Below, piece after piece: positions 21,621 to 64,000 of a stretch of 64,000 nt of DNA. How positions within the stretch are numbered: position 1 is the first letter of the stretch; the number at the start of each line of letters is the position of its first letter. The translations under genes and the position numbers were made by a program. This DNA is from a virus: positions 25,852 to 89,851 of IMG/VR virus record IMGVR_UViG_3300032086_004020. One strand, given 5' to 3'. The notes beneath the pieces were generated by a model, which saw nothing but the letters and a program-made list of their open reading frames with translations, had not been told where the DNA came from and did no database searches.

Positions 21621-22948
21621 TTTTCTGTAAAGATGTTTCTTATTTTACCTGTTTCAGTACTTCTTTTAATTTCATCAACTATTGCAATATTCAGTGGTAG
21701 CGAACCTACTCTGCTAGACATACCTTTTCTAATTTCGGTTTCCGTTTTTTCGCAAAATTTCTCATTCTTAACAATATTCATTGTAAGACTACGGTCTGCT
21801 TTTTGAAAAATTTGGAACATTTTAACACCATCTATCTTATACATCATAGTGTAAAAGTTAACCCCTGGCAATCTACAACCATCTTTAGATATTAGTATAT
21901 CGTCACATCTACCATCTATATCTAACATAGTGTAACATGTGCTTTTGTCATTGTTTATGATTCCTACATCGTTTGTTTTATATCTAAGAAAAGGCATATA
22001 GTAATTATTAAACCCTGTACCAACTATTACATTTTGATCATTTTCTTGCACAAATTCAGTAATACCATATTCAAAATTTTCATAATAGTGGTCCGACTCA
22101 CTAGTTTGATGATGAAACACAACTTTTTCTTGTAGTCCATAGTGCGCTTTGGGTTTGATGCCAAAAGCCTTATATATTTTGTTAGACCATTCTTCTAACA
22201 TTTTTTCTGAGGCTACATGTATTTGCGATATGTTTAATGATAAATTATGGTCTTCACATAAACATGCTAGTATGTAAATGCTAGACGGATACCCAACCAG
22301 TGTGTGATAATTTCCTGCATTTATTTTTTTTACATAATCATGTACAGTCTTATCATTAACATGATATGCTGACATGTATAGTCTTCTTAATTCATAGTCA
22401 TAATTCCATAACATATTTTCTTTAGGGGGCACAAATCTACGCAGCCAAACACTAGGCTTGTCGTACATTGTTGCTCCATGGTCATTAAAAGCCCTTAGTA
22501 CAAAAGCGGCTTCTTTTTTGTATAAATCATCAGTGCCATAAAAAATTAATTTTTTACCTGTTGATCCACTAGTTCTAAATTCAAAACATTTTTGTCCAAT
22601 CATATTAGAAGCAATAAGATCTTTTGTATTATCTCTAATAATATCTTTTGTAAGTATTGGCAGTAAAGAGATATCAGAAGCAGATTTGAATGATTGTGGA
22701 CAAAGCCCACGGTCTAACATCACATTTTTATAGTAAGGCACATTATTGTAGCAGTGTGTAATGAGTTTCTTGAACTCTAAATATTGATAGTCTAATAATT
22801 GTTGTTTGTTCCATGTTCTAGATGTCATTAAGTTTTGAAAAGTTTCTACAAAAATCTTACCATACCTACGATTGAAAGGCACGCAATTGTAGTATGCTCT
22901 TTTTAGAAAACCAGGACAAACTTTAATTATTTTGTTTACACTACCCAT
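21617..22948 (-). CDS. Adenylate-forming enzyme, CapK/PaaK family
   Basis: About 443 residues. The family activates carboxylic acids with ATP, and CapK members occur in capsule operons. The AMP-binding signature is EFRTSGSTGKKLIFYG, preceded by LLPILTKDIIRDNTKDLI and followed by PFLRYKTNDVGI and IDGRCDDILISKDG, as in phenylacetate-CoA ligases. I chose the ATG at 22948, which overlaps the upstream HAD gene by 8 bases; the longer frame to 22987 would overlap more. It probably supplies an acyl or amino-acid group for the glycan. Confidence 0.8.
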   Translation of the reverse strand: MGSVNKIIKVCPGFLKRAYYNCVPFNRRYGKIFVETFQNLMTSRTWNKQQLLDYQYLEFKKLITHCYNNVPYYKNVMLDRGLCPQSFKSASDISLLPILTKDIIRDNTKDLIASNMIGQKCFEFRTSGSTGKKLIFYGTDDLYKKEAAFVLRAFNDHGATMYDKPSVWLRRFVPPKENMLWNYDYELRRLYMSAYHVNDKTVHDYVKKINAGNYHTLVGYPSSIYILACLCEDHNLSLNISQIHVASEKMLEEWSNKIYKAFGIKPKAHYGLQEKVVFHHQTSESDHYYENFEYGITEFVQENDQNVIVGTGFNNYYMPFLRYKTNDVGIINNDKSTCYTMLDIDGRCDDILISKDGCRLPGVNFYTMMYKIDGVKMFQIFQKADRSLTMNIVKNEKFCEKTETEIRKGMSSRVGSLPLNIAIVDEIKRSTETGKIRNIFTEK

Positions 22949-23279
22949 TATGAAAAAAGTCTTCGCTGTTAATAGCTTTGTCGTCAATATAATAATCTGC
23001 CATATACTTTACTCCACTTCTCAGGTGATCAAATTTTAATCCCCAATCTTTTAGTTGATTTAACGTTTTAAAAAACCAAGACCTACCTGAATTATTACCT
23101 CTGGCTGTTTCAATGATGATTATATGTCCCTCATCATGTAATTCGTTAATTTTATTAATTCTGTCAGATATAGGCTTAGAATCAAAATACTGCGGACCAC
23201 TCTTACCGTCTGGGCCCACACCCATTTCAGTTCTACATAACGTGTCGTCTAAATCTACTACATAAATTAATCTTTTCAT
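22941..23279 (-). CDS. HAD-superfamily hydrolase (small phosphatase)
   Basis: A 112-residue compact HAD phosphatase. Motif I is YVVDLDDTLC near residue 6, motif II is IIIIETARG near residue 55, and motif III-IV is MADYYIDDKA near residue 94. This size and pattern matches the small capsule-biosynthesis type phosphatases that act on sugar or glycerol phosphates. It overlaps the next glycosyltransferase gene by one base (23279) and CapK by 8 bases. Confidence 0.8.
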   Translation of the reverse strand: MKRLIYVVDLDDTLCRTEMGVGPDGKSGPQYFDSKPISDRINKINELHDEGHIIIIETARGNNSGRSWFFKTLNQLKDWGLKFDHLRSGVKYMADYYIDDKAINSEDFFHNG

Positions 23280-24058
23280 TATAAAGGTGCTTTTACATTT
23301 ACTCCTGGAAAATTTGGAATTACATGCGTTGATTGATTAAATTTTCGCATAGCTTCTACCAAAAGTCTTTCATTTTCTCTAAACTGTGGCCAGAATGAAG
23401 GTCTAGAACTTTTGTAAGGGCCTCTAACGTCTCCACCTTCTTCGTGATGTAAAGCATAAATATTTTCACTACAATCTATACTATCATAGCCTATTTGTCT
23501 TGGAAGCCATAACATACACCTATCAAAAGATCCTCTAGCTATTAAGAAATTTGGAAAGAAATTTTTAGAATTTAAATTTAAATATACGTCTTTGTGAAAA
23601 CAAAAATAGTCACAATGTTCTGTGTTTCTGAATGGCAGGTCACCAGCAATTTCCATGATTTGCTCATCAGACAAATTATTAATATCTAAATCACAATAAT
23701 CTACCCAATCTCTTCTTTTGCCTACCATTTGAAAGGGCTTATCATATTTATCTTTTATATGCTTAAAAGTTTCACAAAAATCTGATAAAAATATTATATC
23801 GCTATTTACATAGCAAAGATATTGATTATCGGTTTTATCTATAGCATCTAGGAAAAGATCTTTGATTGAAGGTGGATCTAAAGGCTTGAGTTCTTTAGGA
23901 TATTTTCTAGCAACAACTTTAGGATGTTCTAAAATCTGACTAGTTTCTAAAGACGTATACACTACAATTTCATGGACGCAATCTAGTTTTGTCCATGATA
24001 GTAGTGAGTTTTTTTCTCTATACAAGAATTGTTCTAGAGTAGTAAAGAATGTTATCAT
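23279..24058 (-). CDS. Glycosyltransferase-like protein (GT-A)
   Basis: A 259-residue protein. The segment YLCYVNSDIIFLSDF near residue 95 is a typical GT-A metal motif region, and FFTTLEQFLYREKNSLLSWTKL resembles the opening of a glycosyltransferase. FRNTEHCDYFCFHKDVY and SFDRCMLWLPRQIGYD follow as in sugar-binding halves. It overlaps the next GT gene in an ATGA arrangement. No membrane segment. Acceptor and donor unknown. Confidence 0.6.
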   Translation of the reverse strand: MITFFTTLEQFLYREKNSLLSWTKLDCVHEIVVYTSLETSQILEHPKVVARKYPKELKPLDPPSIKDLFLDAIDKTDNQYLCYVNSDIIFLSDFCETFKHIKDKYDKPFQMVGKRRDWVDYCDLDINNLSDEQIMEIAGDLPFRNTEHCDYFCFHKDVYLNLNSKNFFPNFLIARGSFDRCMLWLPRQIGYDSIDCSENIYALHHEEGGDVRGPYKSSRPSFWPQFRENERLLVEAMRKFNQSTHVIPNFPGVNVKAPL

Positions 24059-24945
24059 TTTAAAAACTTAGCTTTGCATAATGTCCTAATTTTTTCTTTT
24101 ACGCCATCGTCCCATAAAAATTCCTTTACCATTTTATTATATGGCTTATAGTTTTTCCAATTTTGTGCATAGTGGTCTGCGTTGCTATGCTCTCCCCATT
24201 CTCCAATATACTGTGCATTCATAGTAAAGGTGGATATTTTAATAAAATTATTTAAGGCTAGAAAACCACTCATAACACTATCTTGACTAGTTACTACTTT
24301 GGTTGGGTCCATGCCATATTGTTCACAGTATCCCAATATTTGTTGATGCGGCCTACCCCTATAGTCATCTGGTAGCATAGCATAGTAACCTTCCATAAAA
24401 GGAGCCACAACATCATATGCTCTTTTAAAAAACCCATATCCCCAAATATGCTCCATTTGCATAAATTTGTTATTATTTCTCTCTTGCTGTTTATCCCAAT
24501 CGTCGTATCTTGTAAGATAGTCACAATACTTAAAAACATCTGTGTGTCTATGAATTTCACCAAAACAACTCACCATACTGACGTCTTTATCATCCTGGAA
24601 TTTATCCATTAATAAATTTAACTGTTCTAGATAATAGTCATTTAATACTATATCGTCTTCTATAAATATAGCAGAATCTGCTCTATCAAAAATAAATTCT
24701 CTTGCTCTTTTTTGATTAAAAGCAACGCCTAAGTTGCATTCACTAGCAAAGACTTTGGATTTAGGAAAATGCTTACTAAAAACATCTACACTGTTTTTTA
24801 CTTTGGGCTTATCATCCGTTAGTATTCTTGCACCATCTTGAAACAAAAAAACCTCAGCGTCCTTGACTTGAGGCTTTAATGCTTGCAATACTTTATCTAA
24901 ATAATCTGGACGATTATACGCATATACTACTATTGGTCTTGACAT
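24055..24945 (-). CDS. GT2-like glycosyltransferase
   Basis: A 296-residue protein with a GT-A start: PIVVYAYNRPDYLDKVLQAL, VFLFQDG near residue 33, and an FIEDDIVLNDYYLEQL metal motif region near residue 94. The later part has MEHIWGYGFFKRAYD, a W-rich acceptor-side block, and MNAQYIGEWGEHSNAD. It lies upstream of the 23279 GT gene and 25 bases from the GlsB-like membrane gene, at an apparent sub-operon boundary. Confidence 0.75.
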   Translation of the reverse strand: MSRPIVVYAYNRPDYLDKVLQALKPQVKDAEVFLFQDGARILTDDKPKVKNSVDVFSKHFPKSKVFASECNLGVAFNQKRAREFIFDRADSAIFIEDDIVLNDYYLEQLNLLMDKFQDDKDVSMVSCFGEIHRHTDVFKYCDYLTRYDDWDKQQERNNNKFMQMEHIWGYGFFKRAYDVVAPFMEGYYAMLPDDYRGRPHQQILGYCEQYGMDPTKVVTSQDSVMSGFLALNNFIKISTFTMNAQYIGEWGEHSNADHYAQNWKNYKPYNKMVKEFLWDDGVKEKIRTLCKAKFLK

Positions 24946-24970
24946 TATAATCCTAGATACTGTAGTGAAG

Positions 24971-25219
24971 TTAACTCTTGGTTAGTTTATTATAAACTAA
25001 AAGAGCAACCACGCCACCACCAATTCCCATAAAAATTCCCGCAGGCTCTAACGCACTATAAAACCCTAATAAATAAGATGCTGCTCCGCCGCAATACGAT
25101 CCAGCAACACCAAGGGCTACGGTTTGAAAAAACCCTAATTTTTCTTCACCAGGAACTATACTCTTAGCAATAGACCCTACAAAAATACCATATACGCACC
25201 ATATTAATAAACTAAACAT
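24971..25219 (-). CDS. GlsB/YeaQ/YmgE-type small membrane protein
   Basis: An 82-residue, three-helix membrane protein matching the transglycosylase-associated (GlsB/YeaQ/YmgE) family: YGIFVGSIAKSIVPGEEKLG, then FFQTVALGVAGSYCGGAASYLLG, and GIFMGIGGGVVALLVYNKL. The family is named for an association with stress or envelope functions, not for known catalysis. It overlaps the next gene by 8 bases and begins the small membrane protein cluster. Confidence 0.7.
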   Translation of the reverse strand: MFSLLIWCVYGIFVGSIAKSIVPGEEKLGFFQTVALGVAGSYCGGAASYLLGFYSALEPAGIFMGIGGGVVALLVYNKLTKS

Positions 25220-25598
25220 TACTTACCTCTATTAAAGAATGAACTTGTTCGTGACTCAAATCGCTTGCAGCATCCAATATTTTCTCACACAAAACACTTC
25301 CATGTTTTTTATATTCTTCCCTTGGCATATTTTTCCGTAATATTTTTTTAAGACGCATTTTGGTATACCATCCACGCCTTACGCTTAATGTTTTAATATG
25401 ACTAGCATAAGCAGTACATTTTTGTTCAGTACTAGTCAGCATTTTGAGTTCTGTTTTATTACAGTCTTGTATGACTCTGATCAAAGTAAGAAATACCCCA
25501 ATCAACATAATAACAACTATGACACTACCAAAGTTAGCCTTCGGATCTATGTCAGAATCTATAGCAATTTTTTCTGCAATTTTTTCTAATTCATTCAT
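25212..25598 (-). CDS. Small membrane protein, one TM segment
   Basis: Unrecognised 128-residue protein. A single hydrophobic segment at about residues 24-42 (GSVIVVIMLIGVFLTLIRVI) divides a short N-terminus from a basic C-terminal domain rich in Arg and Lys (RRGWYTKMRLKKILRKN). It overlaps the GlsB-like gene by 8 bases. It could be a lysis-timing or envelope protein; no known family seen. Confidence 0.55.
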   Translation of the reverse strand: MNELEKIAEKIAIDSDIDPKANFGSVIVVIMLIGVFLTLIRVIQDCNKTELKMLTSTEQKCTAYASHIKTLSVRRGWYTKMRLKKILRKNMPREEYKKHGSVLCEKILDAASDLSHEQVHSLIEVSNV

Positions 25599-25602
25599 GA
25601 TA

Positions 25603-25875
25603 TTACTTCGGCCTTATGTTAATATAAAATTTACCATCCCTGGCGCCAGTTTTTAAAATACCATCCGATGTTATTTGTGCTTTAGCTTCAACTGGCGGAC
25701 CTCCGCCTATGACTGTAGGAGGATACCCAGCAGTATTCGTTCCAAAAACAGGGTTGTACCCTGCAGTATTGTACGCTGCAGTATTATACCCTGCAGTACT
25801 ATACACTATATTGTCGTCAATATTATTTATAGTCGTTTGTAAAATTTTGTTGAATAGTTCTTTATTACTCATCAT
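25603..25875 (-). CDS. Small protein with YNTAG repeats; shares N-terminus with 39740-41458
   Basis: A 90-residue protein with tandem five-residue repeats (STAGYNTAAYNTAGYN), encoded by four near-identical 15-base units around 25750-25805. The first 30 residues (SNKELFNKILQ, DDNIVY) clearly match the start of the much longer protein at 39740-41458 (SNKEIYNKILE, DDNIVF), and that one also has a KYNTASYGP motif. A short targeting or assembly module is therefore shared. The start can be either of two adjacent ATGs and overlaps the GT stop by 11 bases. Role unknown. Confidence 0.6.
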   Translation of the reverse strand: MMSNKELFNKILQTTINNIDDNIVYSTAGYNTAAYNTAGYNPVFGTNTAGYPPTVIGGGPPVEAKAQITSDGILKTGARDGKFYINIRPK

Positions 25876-47050: not shown

Positions 47051-47965
47051 TTATATATTATGCAGGTGGTGAGGTTTAATAGGGTGTAAAATCCCATATC
47101 CCTCATATCTCTTTTGTCCTGAATACATTGGGTTGGTTAAACTTTGGCAAGTTTGCTGGAAAGCACTGACTAATTCAAATCTACTTAACCTTCTGCCTGC
47201 ACAAGACATAGCCAAGGCTGCACAGCCAACTGCAAATGGATTACTCATGCTTGTACCACTTAATTTAGCATACCTGTTATTGGGAACACAACTAAGTATA
47301 TCTTTTCCGGGTGCTAAAAAATCTAAAGTATTACCACTACAACTAAAATTAGTCCTTTTAAAGTCTATATCTATAGCCGCTATACTTATTGTAGAAGAGT
47401 ATTTAGCAGGATACATAATATCTGTTGCTGGGCCACTATTGCCTGCTGCACAGAATATAGCACAACCTTTAGAAGAAGCATAATTTACTGCTCTTTCTAA
47501 GTGTAAAGAATTCACGGGACTACCTAAGCTCATTGTAATTATATCAGCCCCATTATCAGCAGCCCATATCAATCCTTTGCAAATACCTTTGAGGCTACCA
47601 GAACCATCATCACCCAATCCTTTGATGGGCATGATTTTAGCTTTTGGTGATACTCCCACCATACCTAAACTATTATCGCTTGCTGCTATTGTACCGGCTA
47701 CATGAGTACCATGACAGTTACGGTCTATAGGAGCCTGTCCTTCTTCTATAAAGTTATAACCATCTATTAAATTTCTTTTTAAATCATCGTGGTTAAGATC
47801 GCATCCAGTATCAATGACAGCAATCTTGACACCTTCTCCCATACTGTATTTCCAATATTTTTGTATTTCAAATTTCTGAATTTCCCAACCATAAAATTGA
47901 CCCGTCTTTGAGTCTAAACCGAAAACATCTTCTCTAATATACGGGAATAATTTAACTTTGCGCAT
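47051..47965 (-). CDS. Subtilisin-like serine protease (S8)
   Basis: A 304-residue subtilase. The triad is Asp52 in IAVIDTGCDL, His85 in NCHGTHVAG, and Ser239 in LSGTSMSNP. No signal peptide is predicted and the first 40 residues are too short for a standard inhibitory propeptide; they do not look like one. It overlaps the trypsin-like gene by 14 bases, so the two may be translated together. Could mature a structural protein, degrade host proteins, or act after lysis. Confidence 0.88.
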   Translation of the reverse strand: MRKVKLFPYIREDVFGLDSKTGQFYGWEIQKFEIQKYWKYSMGEGVKIAVIDTGCDLNHDDLKRNLIDGYNFIEEGQAPIDRNCHGTHVAGTIAASDNSLGMVGVSPKAKIMPIKGLGDDGSGSLKGICKGLIWAADNGADIITMSLGSPVNSLHLERAVNYASSKGCAIFCAAGNSGPATDIMYPAKYSSTISIAAIDIDFKRTNFSCSGNTLDFLAPGKDILSCVPNNRYAKLSGTSMSNPFAVGCAALAMSCAGRRLSRFELVSAFQQTCQSLTNPMYSGQKRYEGYGILHPIKPHHLHNI

Positions 47966-57827: not shown

Positions 57828-58002
57828 TTACATTCCTGTATTCCTCATCAGTCCACATTTTGTAGACCAAATAAAAATCTCTAGGTTTCCATTGTTTTAC
57901 TTTTTCTTCACTAGATACTTCTCCCCTTGGAACGCAGAGAAGCATCACCAGATATAAAAAGCACAACCCAATAATAACCCATAAACTTTTATCTTTAATC
58001 AA
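57817..58002 (-). CDS. Small membrane protein (TTG start)
   Basis: About 61 residues from a TTG start at 58002 preceded by AGGAAG. One hydrophobic helix (LWVIIGLCFLYLVMLLCV) then a polar, basic tail (VKQWKPRDFYLVYKMW). Overlaps the pseudopilin stop by 8 bases and the kinase-like gene by 11. It may be coupled to the pseudopilin. Confidence 0.5.
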   Translation of the reverse strand: MIKDKSLWVIIGLCFLYLVMLLCVPRGEVSSEEKVKQWKPRDFYLVYKMWTDEEYRNVNGK

Positions 58003-58972
58003 TACTTCCTACTTCTCTTCCATTACGAGTAATTGCAGCAGCAAACGCTCTTAAATCTACGTTATCATTAATAGTTCTAGTAGAACCATCTGCATATACG
58101 CAGTTCATTACGCCGGGGTGCATACTATATGCTTCGCCGTCATTAATAACATTAAATGGAACATTACCAGCACAGTTCTTACATTTATCCCCATTAGCAT
58201 CAACACCATGTAATTTAAATGGCCCCAATGAATCTGCCCAACCAATACACTGGTTAGTATTCCCTGTAGCACTTTTACCATTACTAGCTTTATAAGTATC
58301 AGGTCTGCTTGCACACTCTACAATCATAAGAGTGTTAGAAAAACCATCAACAATTTCTTGCTCTTTAGTTACTTTATCTTTAATTAAACAACCATCATCA
58401 TTAGTTTTACTTGCATAAGGATCGCTACCAGCAGGAAAGATTTTATCTTTTACCCCAGTGAACACCTCATAGTCTGTATAACCAAGTGTATTCGGGTCTA
58501 AACTTGGTGCAGCACTATCGCTATCTCTACTAGGCCCGTCAACACTGGCATACCCACCCACAGGAGGAAGGGCAGTTGGACATTTAAATACAGATGCTTC
58601 TGTAACAATAGCGGCAGTATTTTGCCACCAATGTTTATTGAAGTCATAAATGTTTGCTACGTTACCCTGTTCTAAATTTACCAAAACAAATGCTCTCCAG
58701 CTATGCTCTGTTCGTGAAGGATTGCCGAGAGAACTAGGGGTTTCAGATAAGTCTTTAGCTTCAACAGTCCATGCGGCAGCAGGAAAATATCTTTTTTGAT
58801 CTAAACTCATGTGTATAGCCAAACCTTGTTGTTTTAAATTATTAGAACAAGATGCTCGTCTTGCTGCTTCTCTAGCCTGTTGAACAGCAGGTAATAACAA
58901 TCCAACTAAAACACCAATGATTGCAATAACGACGAGAAGTTCAATGAGGGTAAAGCCGGTTTGCTTTTTCAT
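57995..58972 (-). CDS. DUF1559 type IV pilin-like pseudopilin (planctomycete type)
   Basis: A 325-residue pseudopilin. The prepilin signal is KKQTGFTLIELLVVIAIIGV with cleavage after Gly6, then a hydrophobic helix and PAVQQAREAARRASCSNNLKQ, the DUF1559 opening. The C-terminus contains HPGVMNCVYADGSTRTIND, also diagnostic. These proteins are abundant in Planctomycetes and rare elsewhere. As the family usually occurs in host genomes, this copy may be horizontally acquired, though codon use is similar to neighbours. Long 5' leader, 92 bases to the next gene. Confidence 0.9.
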   Translation of the reverse strand: MKKQTGFTLIELLVVIAIIGVLVGLLLPAVQQAREAARRASCSNNLKQQGLAIHMSLDQKRYFPAAAWTVEAKDLSETPSSLGNPSRTEHSWRAFVLVNLEQGNVANIYDFNKHWWQNTAAIVTEASVFKCPTALPPVGGYASVDGPSRDSDSAAPSLDPNTLGYTDYEVFTGVKDKIFPAGSDPYASKTNDDGCLIKDKVTKEQEIVDGFSNTLMIVECASRPDTYKASNGKSATGNTNQCIGWADSLGPFKLHGVDANGDKCKNCAGNVPFNVINDGEAYSMHPGVMNCVYADGSTRTINDNVDLRAFAAAITRNGREVGSID

Positions 58973-59748: not shown

Positions 59749-59821
59749 TAGGAGTGGCGGGAGTCGAACCCACACTGGAAGGATTTTAAGTCCTTTGTCT
59801 CTGCCTTTGGACTACACTCCC
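59749..59821 (-). tRNA. tRNA-Leu (UAA anticodon) with short variable arm
   Basis: The acceptor stem is GGGAGTG with CACTCCT (first pair G-U), the anticodon arm AAGGA-CTTAAAA-TCCTT carries TAA at positions 34-36, and the T arm is GTGGG-TTCGACT-CCCGC. A 3-bp D stem (GTC/GAC) encloses AAAGGCAGA. CCA is not encoded. The UAA anticodon reads UUA, common in this AT-rich genome. Leucine tRNAs normally have a long variable arm; only 5 bases are present here. Confidence 0.85.
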
Positions 59822-61627: not shown

Positions 61628-62953
61628 TTAGACAGTTCTAACTTCACCATGTAAAATTTTAAATGTTGGGAATCTTAGACTTATCCCACCATCTTGATTC
61701 TTGGTTTCTTCAAAGTATTGTACTGTTATAATCTTGCCTAAGATAGCATCAGGGTTTTTATAAAAGTCCTGCCTTTGCTCTATAGAAAATCCACTACCAA
61801 CCCTAACGGTATTATCTTTGTGTTTAATATAAACACAGGATAACATTTCTTCTTCACACTCTTTACCGTTTAATGTAAGAGGAAACATACCCATTTCTGT
61901 ATCTAGCACCTCATACTCAGCATCATGGAAAGTTTTTACTTTAAGTAAATCTTTACTACGCTTACCTTTGTATGCTACATTTTTACGCAGCATTACACCC
62001 TCCCATCCGTTATCATCTGCTTTAGATACCCACTGTTGAAAGTGGTCATCATCATCTACCATCTCCATTTCTAATACAGACAGACAGGGGCATTCATTAT
62101 TTTCCATAGTAAACAATAGTTCTTTATATCTTTGATATAGATTGCCGTCACTCTTCTTTGCCTTAAACTCATCTTGAGTCATCATGTCAAATATTTTATA
62201 AGAAGGATTCTCAATACTATGATCTTTTCTACGAAGTTGTTTCATAATACCTTGAAAGTCTTCGTTACCATCTTCATCAATCAAGCATAGTTCTCCGTCA
62301 AATACTACGTCAGTAAGCCCCAAAGCAGTAATGCCATCAGCGACCACACTAAGAGTAAGGAACTCTTTTCCTGTGCGGGAATAGAAGGTAGTGTTGCCAA
62401 AATGGTCAACAATAGCAAGGCATCTAACACCATCCAGTTTCCTTGAAACAAACCACCCATGTTCATCGTCCCAATCTACTAATTTAGGATCATATTTCTC
62501 TGCCAGAGCCACACTAAACTCTGGAATAAAATCAGGTATAACTTTATTGATAAGTTTAACGCCAACCTTAGTCTTTAGGTCTTTATCTAAAATGCAATAT
62601 ACAAGTTCTTCCTGTTCAGGAAATTTATTAATATAAGTATTAACAATCCTGATAGCATCATGTCCTGTGTATCTACGAAGGGTTAAATCATTAAACAGTT
62701 GACATAGACCATACCCTGCTTCACAATCTCCGAAAGATAAGTCTGGTCGCTTCTTAACTTGGGTACTGGTCAAACCATACATAAGATAGTCATTGTGTGC
62801 TAGGTTTAATACATTTCTGGCATGAAGTTGATCTCCGTTATCTTCCTCTTTACCTGCTTTACAATACTTGGCAATTATTTCCTGCTTGGCTATAGTACCA
62901 CTGTTGTTACGCAGTTCATTAATCATAGCCATAACATATTCTGTAGTGTTCAT
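61628..62953 (-). CDS. ATP-dependent DNA ligase
   Basis: A 441-residue ligase. The nucleotidyl-transfer Lys is Lys172 in SRKLDGVR, followed by FYSRTGKEF (motif Ia/III region), VFDGELCLID, YKIFDMM, and WEGVMLRKNVAYKGKRSKDLLKVK (motifs IV and V). The N-terminal domain of about 160 residues resembles those of other phage ligases, and the OB domain follows at the end. Joins Okazaki fragments or recombination nicks. A near-consensus promoter sits 37 bases upstream of the ATG. Confidence 0.92.
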   Translation of the reverse strand: MNTTEYVMAMINELRNNSGTIAKQEIIAKYCKAGKEEDNGDQLHARNVLNLAHNDYLMYGLTSTQVKKRPDLSFGDCEAGYGLCQLFNDLTLRRYTGHDAIRIVNTYINKFPEQEELVYCILDKDLKTKVGVKLINKVIPDFIPEFSVALAEKYDPKLVDWDDEHGWFVSRKLDGVRCLAIVDHFGNTTFYSRTGKEFLTLSVVADGITALGLTDVVFDGELCLIDEDGNEDFQGIMKQLRRKDHSIENPSYKIFDMMTQDEFKAKKSDGNLYQRYKELLFTMENNECPCLSVLEMEMVDDDDHFQQWVSKADDNGWEGVMLRKNVAYKGKRSKDLLKVKTFHDAEYEVLDTEMGMFPLTLNGKECEEEMLSCVYIKHKDNTVRVGSGFSIEQRQDFYKNPDAILGKIITVQYFEETKNQDGGISLRFPTFKILHGEVRTV

Positions 62954-63590: not shown

Positions 63591-63872
63591 CTAAAGGTAT
63601 TCAAAATAAATTCTATAAGTCCCCAATGTGTAAGCTAAATGAAAGTCTTCAGGAAAGAAAAATATATTAATGGTGTCAAACACAGCATGGTCTGTTTTGC
63701 ATCTTGGTTTAACAGTCTGTATATCTATATGTATTATTCTAAAAGAAATATTACAGTATGTGATGTGCTTTGGTCTACCGTCTATTAAAAACGATAATCC
63801 TTTGTTCCCCTTAATAAAATTAGGAACTACAAACATTAAATACAATAATAATAATAATACGGTAGTTTTCAT
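63591..63872 (-). CDS. Small secreted protein candidate
   Basis: About 93 residues from the ATG at 63872. The N-terminus (TTVLLLLLYLMFVVPNF) resembles a signal sequence. The rest has strand-rich segments (NISFRIIHIDIQTV). The start lies only a few bases after the tmRNA 3' end and has no ribosome site, so expression is doubtful. Frames running on into the tmRNA are false. Confidence 0.4.
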   Translation of the reverse strand: MKTTVLLLLLYLMFVVPNFIKGNKGLSFLIDGRPKHITYCNISFRIIHIDIQTVKPRCKTDHAVFDTINIFFFPEDFHLAYTLGTYRIYFEYL

Positions 63873-63875
63873 AAG

Positions 63876-64000
63876 TGGAGGCGAGGGGAGTCGAACCCCT
63901 GTCCAGTGTAAATTCCACATAAACTTCTACATCGTTAGTCTGTTGTTATTAATACTACGGACAAAACTGTTTGTCTTTCCAACGTCAAAGTGATTACACT
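63876..64000 (-). ncRNA. ssrA: tmRNA (ssrA), 3' part, cut by window edge
   Basis: The minus strand has the tmRNA T arm GGACAGGGGTTCGACTCCCC followed by TCGCCTCCA (acceptor 3' strand and discriminator). Upstream is the conserved AGACTAACGATGTAGAAG segment. CCA is not encoded. The 5' half and the tag peptide lie beyond the right edge. The mature 3' end is about 63876. tmRNA rescues stalled ribosomes; phage-encoded copies are known but uncommon. Confidence 0.88.

Follow-up and report, generated by a model that had tools for sequence, protein, structure and literature searches.

The 3′ end of the window, by which we mean the whole stretch of 64,000 nucleotides analysed here, holds a genuine part of a tmRNA (ssrA) gene. 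tmRNA frees stuck ribosomes and tags unfinished proteins for destruction. Very probably, the fragment belongs to a resident one-piece tmRNA of a lytic-type tailed phage, probably infecting PVC hosts, that would rescue ribosomes and tag their products during infection. This reading is built on the fragment itself, on homology, on intact and covarying full-length relatives, on synteny and on operon packing.

In the proposed mechanism, the RNA would be transcribed within a long minus-strand operon leaving almost no space to its neighbors. Host tRNA-processing enzymes would excise it, and CCA would then be added. Once charged with alanine via the G3-U70 pair, and with the help of host SmpB, it would free ribosomes that have stalled on cleaved or decaying mRNA in the infected cell. 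The phage tag added to the stalled product, most likely ADTSVLALAA, would end in a ClpXP-type LAA degron. Under this reading, one also expects that the gene is complete in the phage and expressed, that the tagged products are degraded and that the phage benefits.

The tmRNA fragment and its full-length relatives

A cmscan search with the Rfam model RF00023 gives a match at window positions 63873–64000 on the minus strand (54.1 bits, E 1.7e-18, gathering score 47). It spans model positions 207–374 and is truncated at its 5′ end, thus corresponding to the 3′ third of a tmRNA (Table 1). The acceptor 3′ strand, the T arm and the 3′ side of the long helix are readable, so that the clear tRNA-like 3′ domain announced in a preliminary description of this DNA stands, as does its placement of the mature 3′ discriminator base, an A, at position 63876. 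This base is followed by CTT; hence, CCA is not encoded. U70 of the acceptor strand faces G3 in the relatives, and the resulting G3-U70 pair, an alanine identity element, is invariant in all 16 of them. Of the helices contained in the window, the T stem and the AGTG/CACT stem are fully paired, and helix 9 (GTCTG/CAGAC) has one mismatched pair (GTCCG vs. CAGAC). ARAGORN did not report the fragment in the window, presumably because it is incomplete. When RF00023 was run over the whole record from which the window is taken, the truncated gene was missed and the lone match (12.7 bits) fell at the position of the tRNA-Leu.

Table 1. Positions of the tmRNA part, of neighboring genes and of the manA-like elements (window coordinates unless a locus is named).
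Feature	Position	Strand	Basis or remark
DUF1559 pseudopilin-like protein	57995–58972	(-)	PF07596, 140.6 bits; H-X9-DG domain above cut-off
tRNA-Leu(UAA)	59749–59821	(-)	ARAGORN, Rfam
ATP-dependent DNA ligase	61628–62953	(-)	phrog_114, E 5.3e-82; PF01068
93-aa ORF, hydrophobic N-terminus, no family match	63591–63872	(-)	ATG 3 nt after tmRNA
CTT trailer in place of CCA	63873–63875	(-)	sequence and alignment of relatives; next ATG directly after
tmRNA (ssrA) 3′ part, phage	63876–64000	(-)	cmscan RF00023; 5′ end lost at contig end
Acceptor stem, 3′ strand CGCCTCC	63877–63883	(-)	read from sequence; 5′ strand beyond window
T arm AGGGG-TTCGACT-CCCCT	63884–63900	(-)	read from sequence; helix 10 of alignment
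Inner long helix 2, 3′ strand CGATGT	63929–63934	(-)	partner GCATCG in relatives
Small covarying hairpin AGTG-TAAT-CACT, pseudoknot region at contig edge	63989–64000	(-)	helix 8
manA-like element	L143:6802–6996
manA-like element	L124:3176–3372
manA-like element	L126:3299–3493
manA-like element	L140:4526–4720
manA-like element	L142:4524–4717
manA-like element	L076:4201–4395

The gene runs off the window, as already described, and it does so at the end of the contig. Indeed, the window covers bases 25852–89851 of a viral record of 89,851 bases and both end at the same base, so that the record offers no further sequence for the tmRNA. At the opposite contig end, the first 1,500 bases are coding, and no 5′ half was found in record bases 1–25852. 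Since the 5′ two thirds, tag included, are absent from the record, this individual gene could be defective.

Relatives were found by searching viral contigs with the neighboring DNA ligase, which gave 20 loci with ligase identities of 61–93% (best segment). According to ARAGORN, 16 of these 20 loci have a complete one-piece tmRNA, with a tag reading frame and stop; the window gene is cut before that part. In two more (L134 and L098), Rfam shows a tmRNA truncated by the contig or locus boundary; a second locus on the contig of L134 (L076) carries a complete one. In the remaining two (L136 and L138), the sequence before the ligase is only about 1.3 and 1.1 kb long, shorter than the spacing in many relatives. 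Among 10 loci scanned with RF00023, the eight complete relatives score 106.9–113.2 bits. The 128 nt of the window are 99.2% identical to the complete tmRNAs of L143 and L129, which makes an ADTSVLALAA-type gene the most likely one in the window, and at least 92% identical to those of L124–L131, L133, L135, L137, and L139–L142. In the relatives, the gene extends about 214 nt past the matching point and includes the tag frame. The preliminary description proposed to look for the 5′ end, the tag peptide and the pseudoknots to the right, and would have rejected the reading if the next 300 or so bases lacked a 5′ half or tag frame. Relatives with 92–99% identity over the 3′ 128 nt have all of these parts, and they stand as a proxy for the window's own contig, which ends there.

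The structure of the full-length RNA was examined on the 16 relatives, using 52 pairs in 10 helices named by eye: the acceptor, helix 2, both PK1 stems, two PK2 stems, three further stems, and the T stem. Nearly all cells are paired (99.6%), a percentage favored by the structure having been drawn from one of the 16 sequences, which does not favor compensatory changes. Changes on both sides occur in 11 pairs, compared with 3.6 in shuffled alignments, and none of 500 shuffles reached this number; structures slid by 1–3 columns gave 0–2 such pairs. The number of further pair types is ordinary, being reached in 106 of 500 shuffles. Both PK1 stems and one of the two PK2 stems covary among the relatives, and in helix 8 (AGTG/CACT) two of the four pairs have changed on both sides. 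The relatives are one-piece molecules with no circular permutation (ARAGORN, RF00023).

Gene order, operon packing and an upstream RNA element

A wider set was assembled from the ligase search and a 24-mer scan, whose figures hold among the matches listed and leave out tmRNAs with other tags. It comprises at least 48 loci with a complete tmRNA of two tag types, repeated contigs being removed. The ligase lies downstream of the tmRNA, on the same strand and 0.4–5.8 kb away, in 38 of the 48 loci listed, a proportion biased upward for those loci that were found via the ligase. The other 10 have just 0.3–4.0 kb of sequence downstream of the tmRNA. The order of tmRNA and ligase is no different in loci picked up by the tmRNA 24-mer alone. 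The preliminary description had called the tmRNA phage-encoded, and the recurrence of a ligase-adjacent tmRNA in many viral contigs supports it.

Packing is tight on both sides of the gene (spacing counts over 48 rows, L122 included and L076 left out). Downstream, the next ORF begins 3 nt after the discriminator base in the window and in 14 of the 48 loci listed, and the 93-aa ORF is conserved from its first methionine onward. Upstream, 24 of the 48 loci listed have a preceding ORF whose stop codon ends at -6 to +1 relative to the tmRNA start; in 15 of those 24, it uses the first G of the tmRNA. All 84 counted non-overlapping ORFs of the window lie on the minus strand, that of the tmRNA. With genes packed on both sides, the tmRNA thus probably has no promoter directly before it and needs to be released from a polycistronic transcript. 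Once the 3′ end is processed, the mRNA that follows would start with CUUAUG and be almost leaderless.

In six relatives (Table 1), a conserved non-coding element of about 195–200 nt ends 14–17 nt before the tmRNA. The L143 element aligns to the whole manA model RF01745 (Rfam, 18.4 bits, E 0.02), and an 18-mer scan gave 12 stretches with the element, seven of them new (L160, L161, L163–L167). In three of the seven, manA is listed by Rfam (27.6, 24.9, and 19.8 bits); a model made from five elements finds the element in all seven. Every manA score (18–28 bits) remains below the RF01745 gathering score of 55.2. Run over whole records, RF01745 gives nothing in 15 records, and Rfam does not list manA in four further relatives scanned. 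The five-element model has strong matches in 6 of 60 sources, L127 and L128 (E 0.11) not being counted; there is no strong match in L127–L133, L135, L137, L139, or L141. Changes on both sides are seen in 8 of 53 predicted pairs among five element sequences. In some loci, the element lies near other genes, away from any tmRNA seen. We regard it as a candidate regulatory RNA that is manA-like rather than manA. It shares with the manA RNA motif (PMC2864571) a full-length alignment and similar outer and 3′ helices; it differs by scores below gathering and by preceding a tmRNA rather than a protein gene.

Tag types and their distribution

The ADTSV type is found in 25 of the 48 loci listed (ADTSVLALAA in 23, ADTSVLALSA in L135, ADTSVLALAV in L099) and the G type in 23 (GETQLALAA in 15, variants in 8), counts among the matches listed that are not frequencies, tmRNAs with other tags being left out (no tag was read by script in 75 of 137 rows). 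The G-type variants are GANQLALAA (two, L030 and L111), GSHQLALAA (two), and GNTQLALAA, GTNQLALAA, GTTPFALAA, and GETQFAMAA (one each). Synonymous changes in the tag are rare among the relatives. At six loci, ARAGORN proposed a long frame-shifted tag, ASLKIDQSFNCRYFCISTRCLVRGVA, which was rejected; the sequence reads the ADTSVLALAA frame there. Judging from reporter-tag work, C-terminal AV and SA variants may weaken proteolysis; the altered tag C-termini of L099 (-LAV) and L135 (-LSA) might slow it.

The tag ADTSVLALAA was searched, with any codons (serine codon loosened), in a collection of genomes from 84,980 species that holds contigs of at least 3 kb. A single match was obtained, on a contig of a Flavobacteriales MAG. 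This is a phage contig with the same downstream ORF as the window, and the MAG's own tmRNA has the tag GENNYALAA. The peptide was thus found in no bacterial chromosome of the collection scanned. As a control of the pattern, the search for GENNYALAA gave 21 positives among 198 Bacteroidota genomes, that for GETQLALAA none among these 198. In the part of the literature searched, no mention of either tag peptide was found. Because the tag occurs in no bacterial chromosome scanned, it is plausible that the phage tmRNA alters the degradation tag.

The two tag types do not follow the ligase tree, built on 29 distinct proteins; two rows were left unlabeled, and the labels of the window (ADTSV) and of L098 (G type) come from 3′ halves alone. 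At least three changes of tag type are needed on this tree, and a topology uniting the ADTSV type in one clade is rejected (p-AU 0.00225). For instance, the ligase of L132 is 89.6% identical to that of the window, yet its tmRNA tag is GETQLALAA. Hence, these phages seem to pass tmRNA alleles among themselves; the ligase, too, may have been transferred. A bolder proposal, which we offer as a tentative idea and as possible rather than probable, is that a lineage of PVC phages with own-tag tmRNAs swaps whole alleles (ADTSVLALAA vs. GETQLALAA) before the ligase. Some of these alleles would stand behind a manA-like candidate riboswitch, and relabeling of failed translation products would be under phage control.

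Probable hosts, other readings and known systems

The genome carries rIIA and rIIB homologs, DNA ligase, clamp loader, helicase, primase, a UvsX-like recombinase, ribonucleotide reductase, and glycosyltransferases; a terminase-like match occurs in three of six records searched. Isolates are distant. In the 20 listed of 28 phage records, the tmRNA match is limited to a 3′-terminal stretch of about 30–36 nt. For ligase, helicase, and terminase, identity to the isolates among the matches listed is less than 35%. Three further observations concern gene content. In L003, the DNA polymerase (phrog_405) is split in two ORFs, with an exonuclease-subunit-like ORF between (L003:2197–5832, minus strand; phage record bases 22197–25832). 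In the 195-kb contig of L141 (6001–7287), the ligase match comes in overlapping pieces, 94% then 71% identical, as after recombination or a frame error. The window also encodes a subtilisin-like serine protease (47051–47965, minus strand), for which the best NCBIfam match, mycosin, is below cut-off and the PHROG match is phrog_3677 “protease”.

As for the hosts, the DUF1559 pseudopilin-like gene, an unusual gene for a phage, carries an N-terminal methylation motif. It was seen in the window, in L137, L061, L083, L009, and L134, and in the records of L127, L128, L130, L141, and L132. PF07596 was found in all 10 phage records searched of the group, of both tag types, in none of 61 Bacteroidota and in none of 14 control genomes; tblastn gave no match to the gene in the phage and plasmid collections. 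According to PMC2754498, baltica has 74 DUF1559 genes. Since all 10 phage records searched carry such a gene, Planctomycetota or other PVC bacteria are the likely hosts. Shine-Dalgarno usage was also considered as a host clue; phage and Flavobacteriales MAG both show the signal, so that it does not discriminate. A Flavobacteriales host, suggested by the MAG bin of one relative's contig, was set aside because the binned contig is itself a phage contig and because DUF1559 points elsewhere.

Four other readings of the gene were weighed. The tmRNA might serve regulation or nutrient recycling, for example by tagging particular host proteins, rather than general rescue, as proposed for phage Melnitz (PMC9004378). 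This would agree with a tag not seen in the bacterial chromosomes scanned and with the manA-like candidate regulatory RNA just upstream in some relatives, but the element is absent from many others. We regard this role as unlikely. SmpB, for which the preliminary description recommended a search, was found in none of eight phage records, possibly fragments, whereas 10 of 14 controls were positive, the four negatives being archaea. Presumably, the SmpB of the host is used. The same result would suit an RNA that inhibits host tmRNA by tying up SmpB or alanyl-tRNA synthetase, as proposed for RNAs reduced to the tRNA-like domain, such as that of phage DS6A; a DS6A-like molecule inhibits tmRNA strongly, perhaps by SmpB titration (PMC4131195). 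We consider an inhibitor very unlikely, since a decoy would need neither the tag frame, ending in LAA or something close to it, nor the covarying pseudoknots that the relatives retain.

Since the window shows the 3′ part alone, one might also think of a prophage attachment-site remnant, in which an integrating element has taken along the 3′ end of the host's ssrA, a common integration site (Islander abstract; Melnitz, PMC9004378). However, the cut was made by the contig end and not by an att boundary, the relatives have the whole gene, and synteny with the ligase is conserved. Moreover, the tyrosine integrase family PF00589 was found in none of eight records (possibly fragments) and in 14 of 14 controls, so that a remnant is highly improbable. 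Finally, the position of the tmRNA at the very end of the contig could reflect host contamination or a chimeric assembly, which can practically be dismissed: the same tmRNA stands beside the same ligase in many separate viral contigs, and the tag is in no bacterial chromosome scanned, its sole match being the phage contig binned in a MAG.

A resident phage tmRNA is in itself no novelty. PMC4131195 lists mycobacteriophages Bxz1, Wildcat, and others, Bacillus phage G, and DS6A; PMC9004378, in its own count, gives tmRNA in 402 of 18,146 phages; and huge phages have tmRNA, some with SmpB (PMC7162821). In phage Wildcat, the tmRNA tops all lytic genes in expression (PMC7474061). The present gene is thus a further phage example, with its own tag type in relatives, and it has been kept throughout a wide group of uncultured phages. 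Phage tmRNAs, though documented, have seldom been tested. The gene raises the question of whether phages merely supplement host rescue or change the tag and the protease fate of stalled products.

With the one-piece tmRNA of RF00023, it shares the acceptor and T arm, G3-U70, the long helix 2, PK1, and a tag ending in ALAA. It differs by its location in phage genomes, by its tags (ADTSVLALAA and G-x-x-Q-L-A-L-A-A), by a CCA that is not encoded and, in many relatives, by the lack of spacing to neighbors. The phage tmRNAs described in PMC4131195 and PMC7162821 belong to other phages and hosts, whereas here the ligase is a conserved neighbor and no SmpB was found in eight records. Like the tmRNA of the methylophage Melnitz (PMC9004378), it is a phage tmRNA in an operon with a candidate regulatory RNA nearby. 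In contrast, the Melnitz tmRNA is in two pieces and associated with a glnA riboswitch, while the molecule studied here is one-piece and unpermuted, and its upstream element is manA-like and restricted to some relatives.
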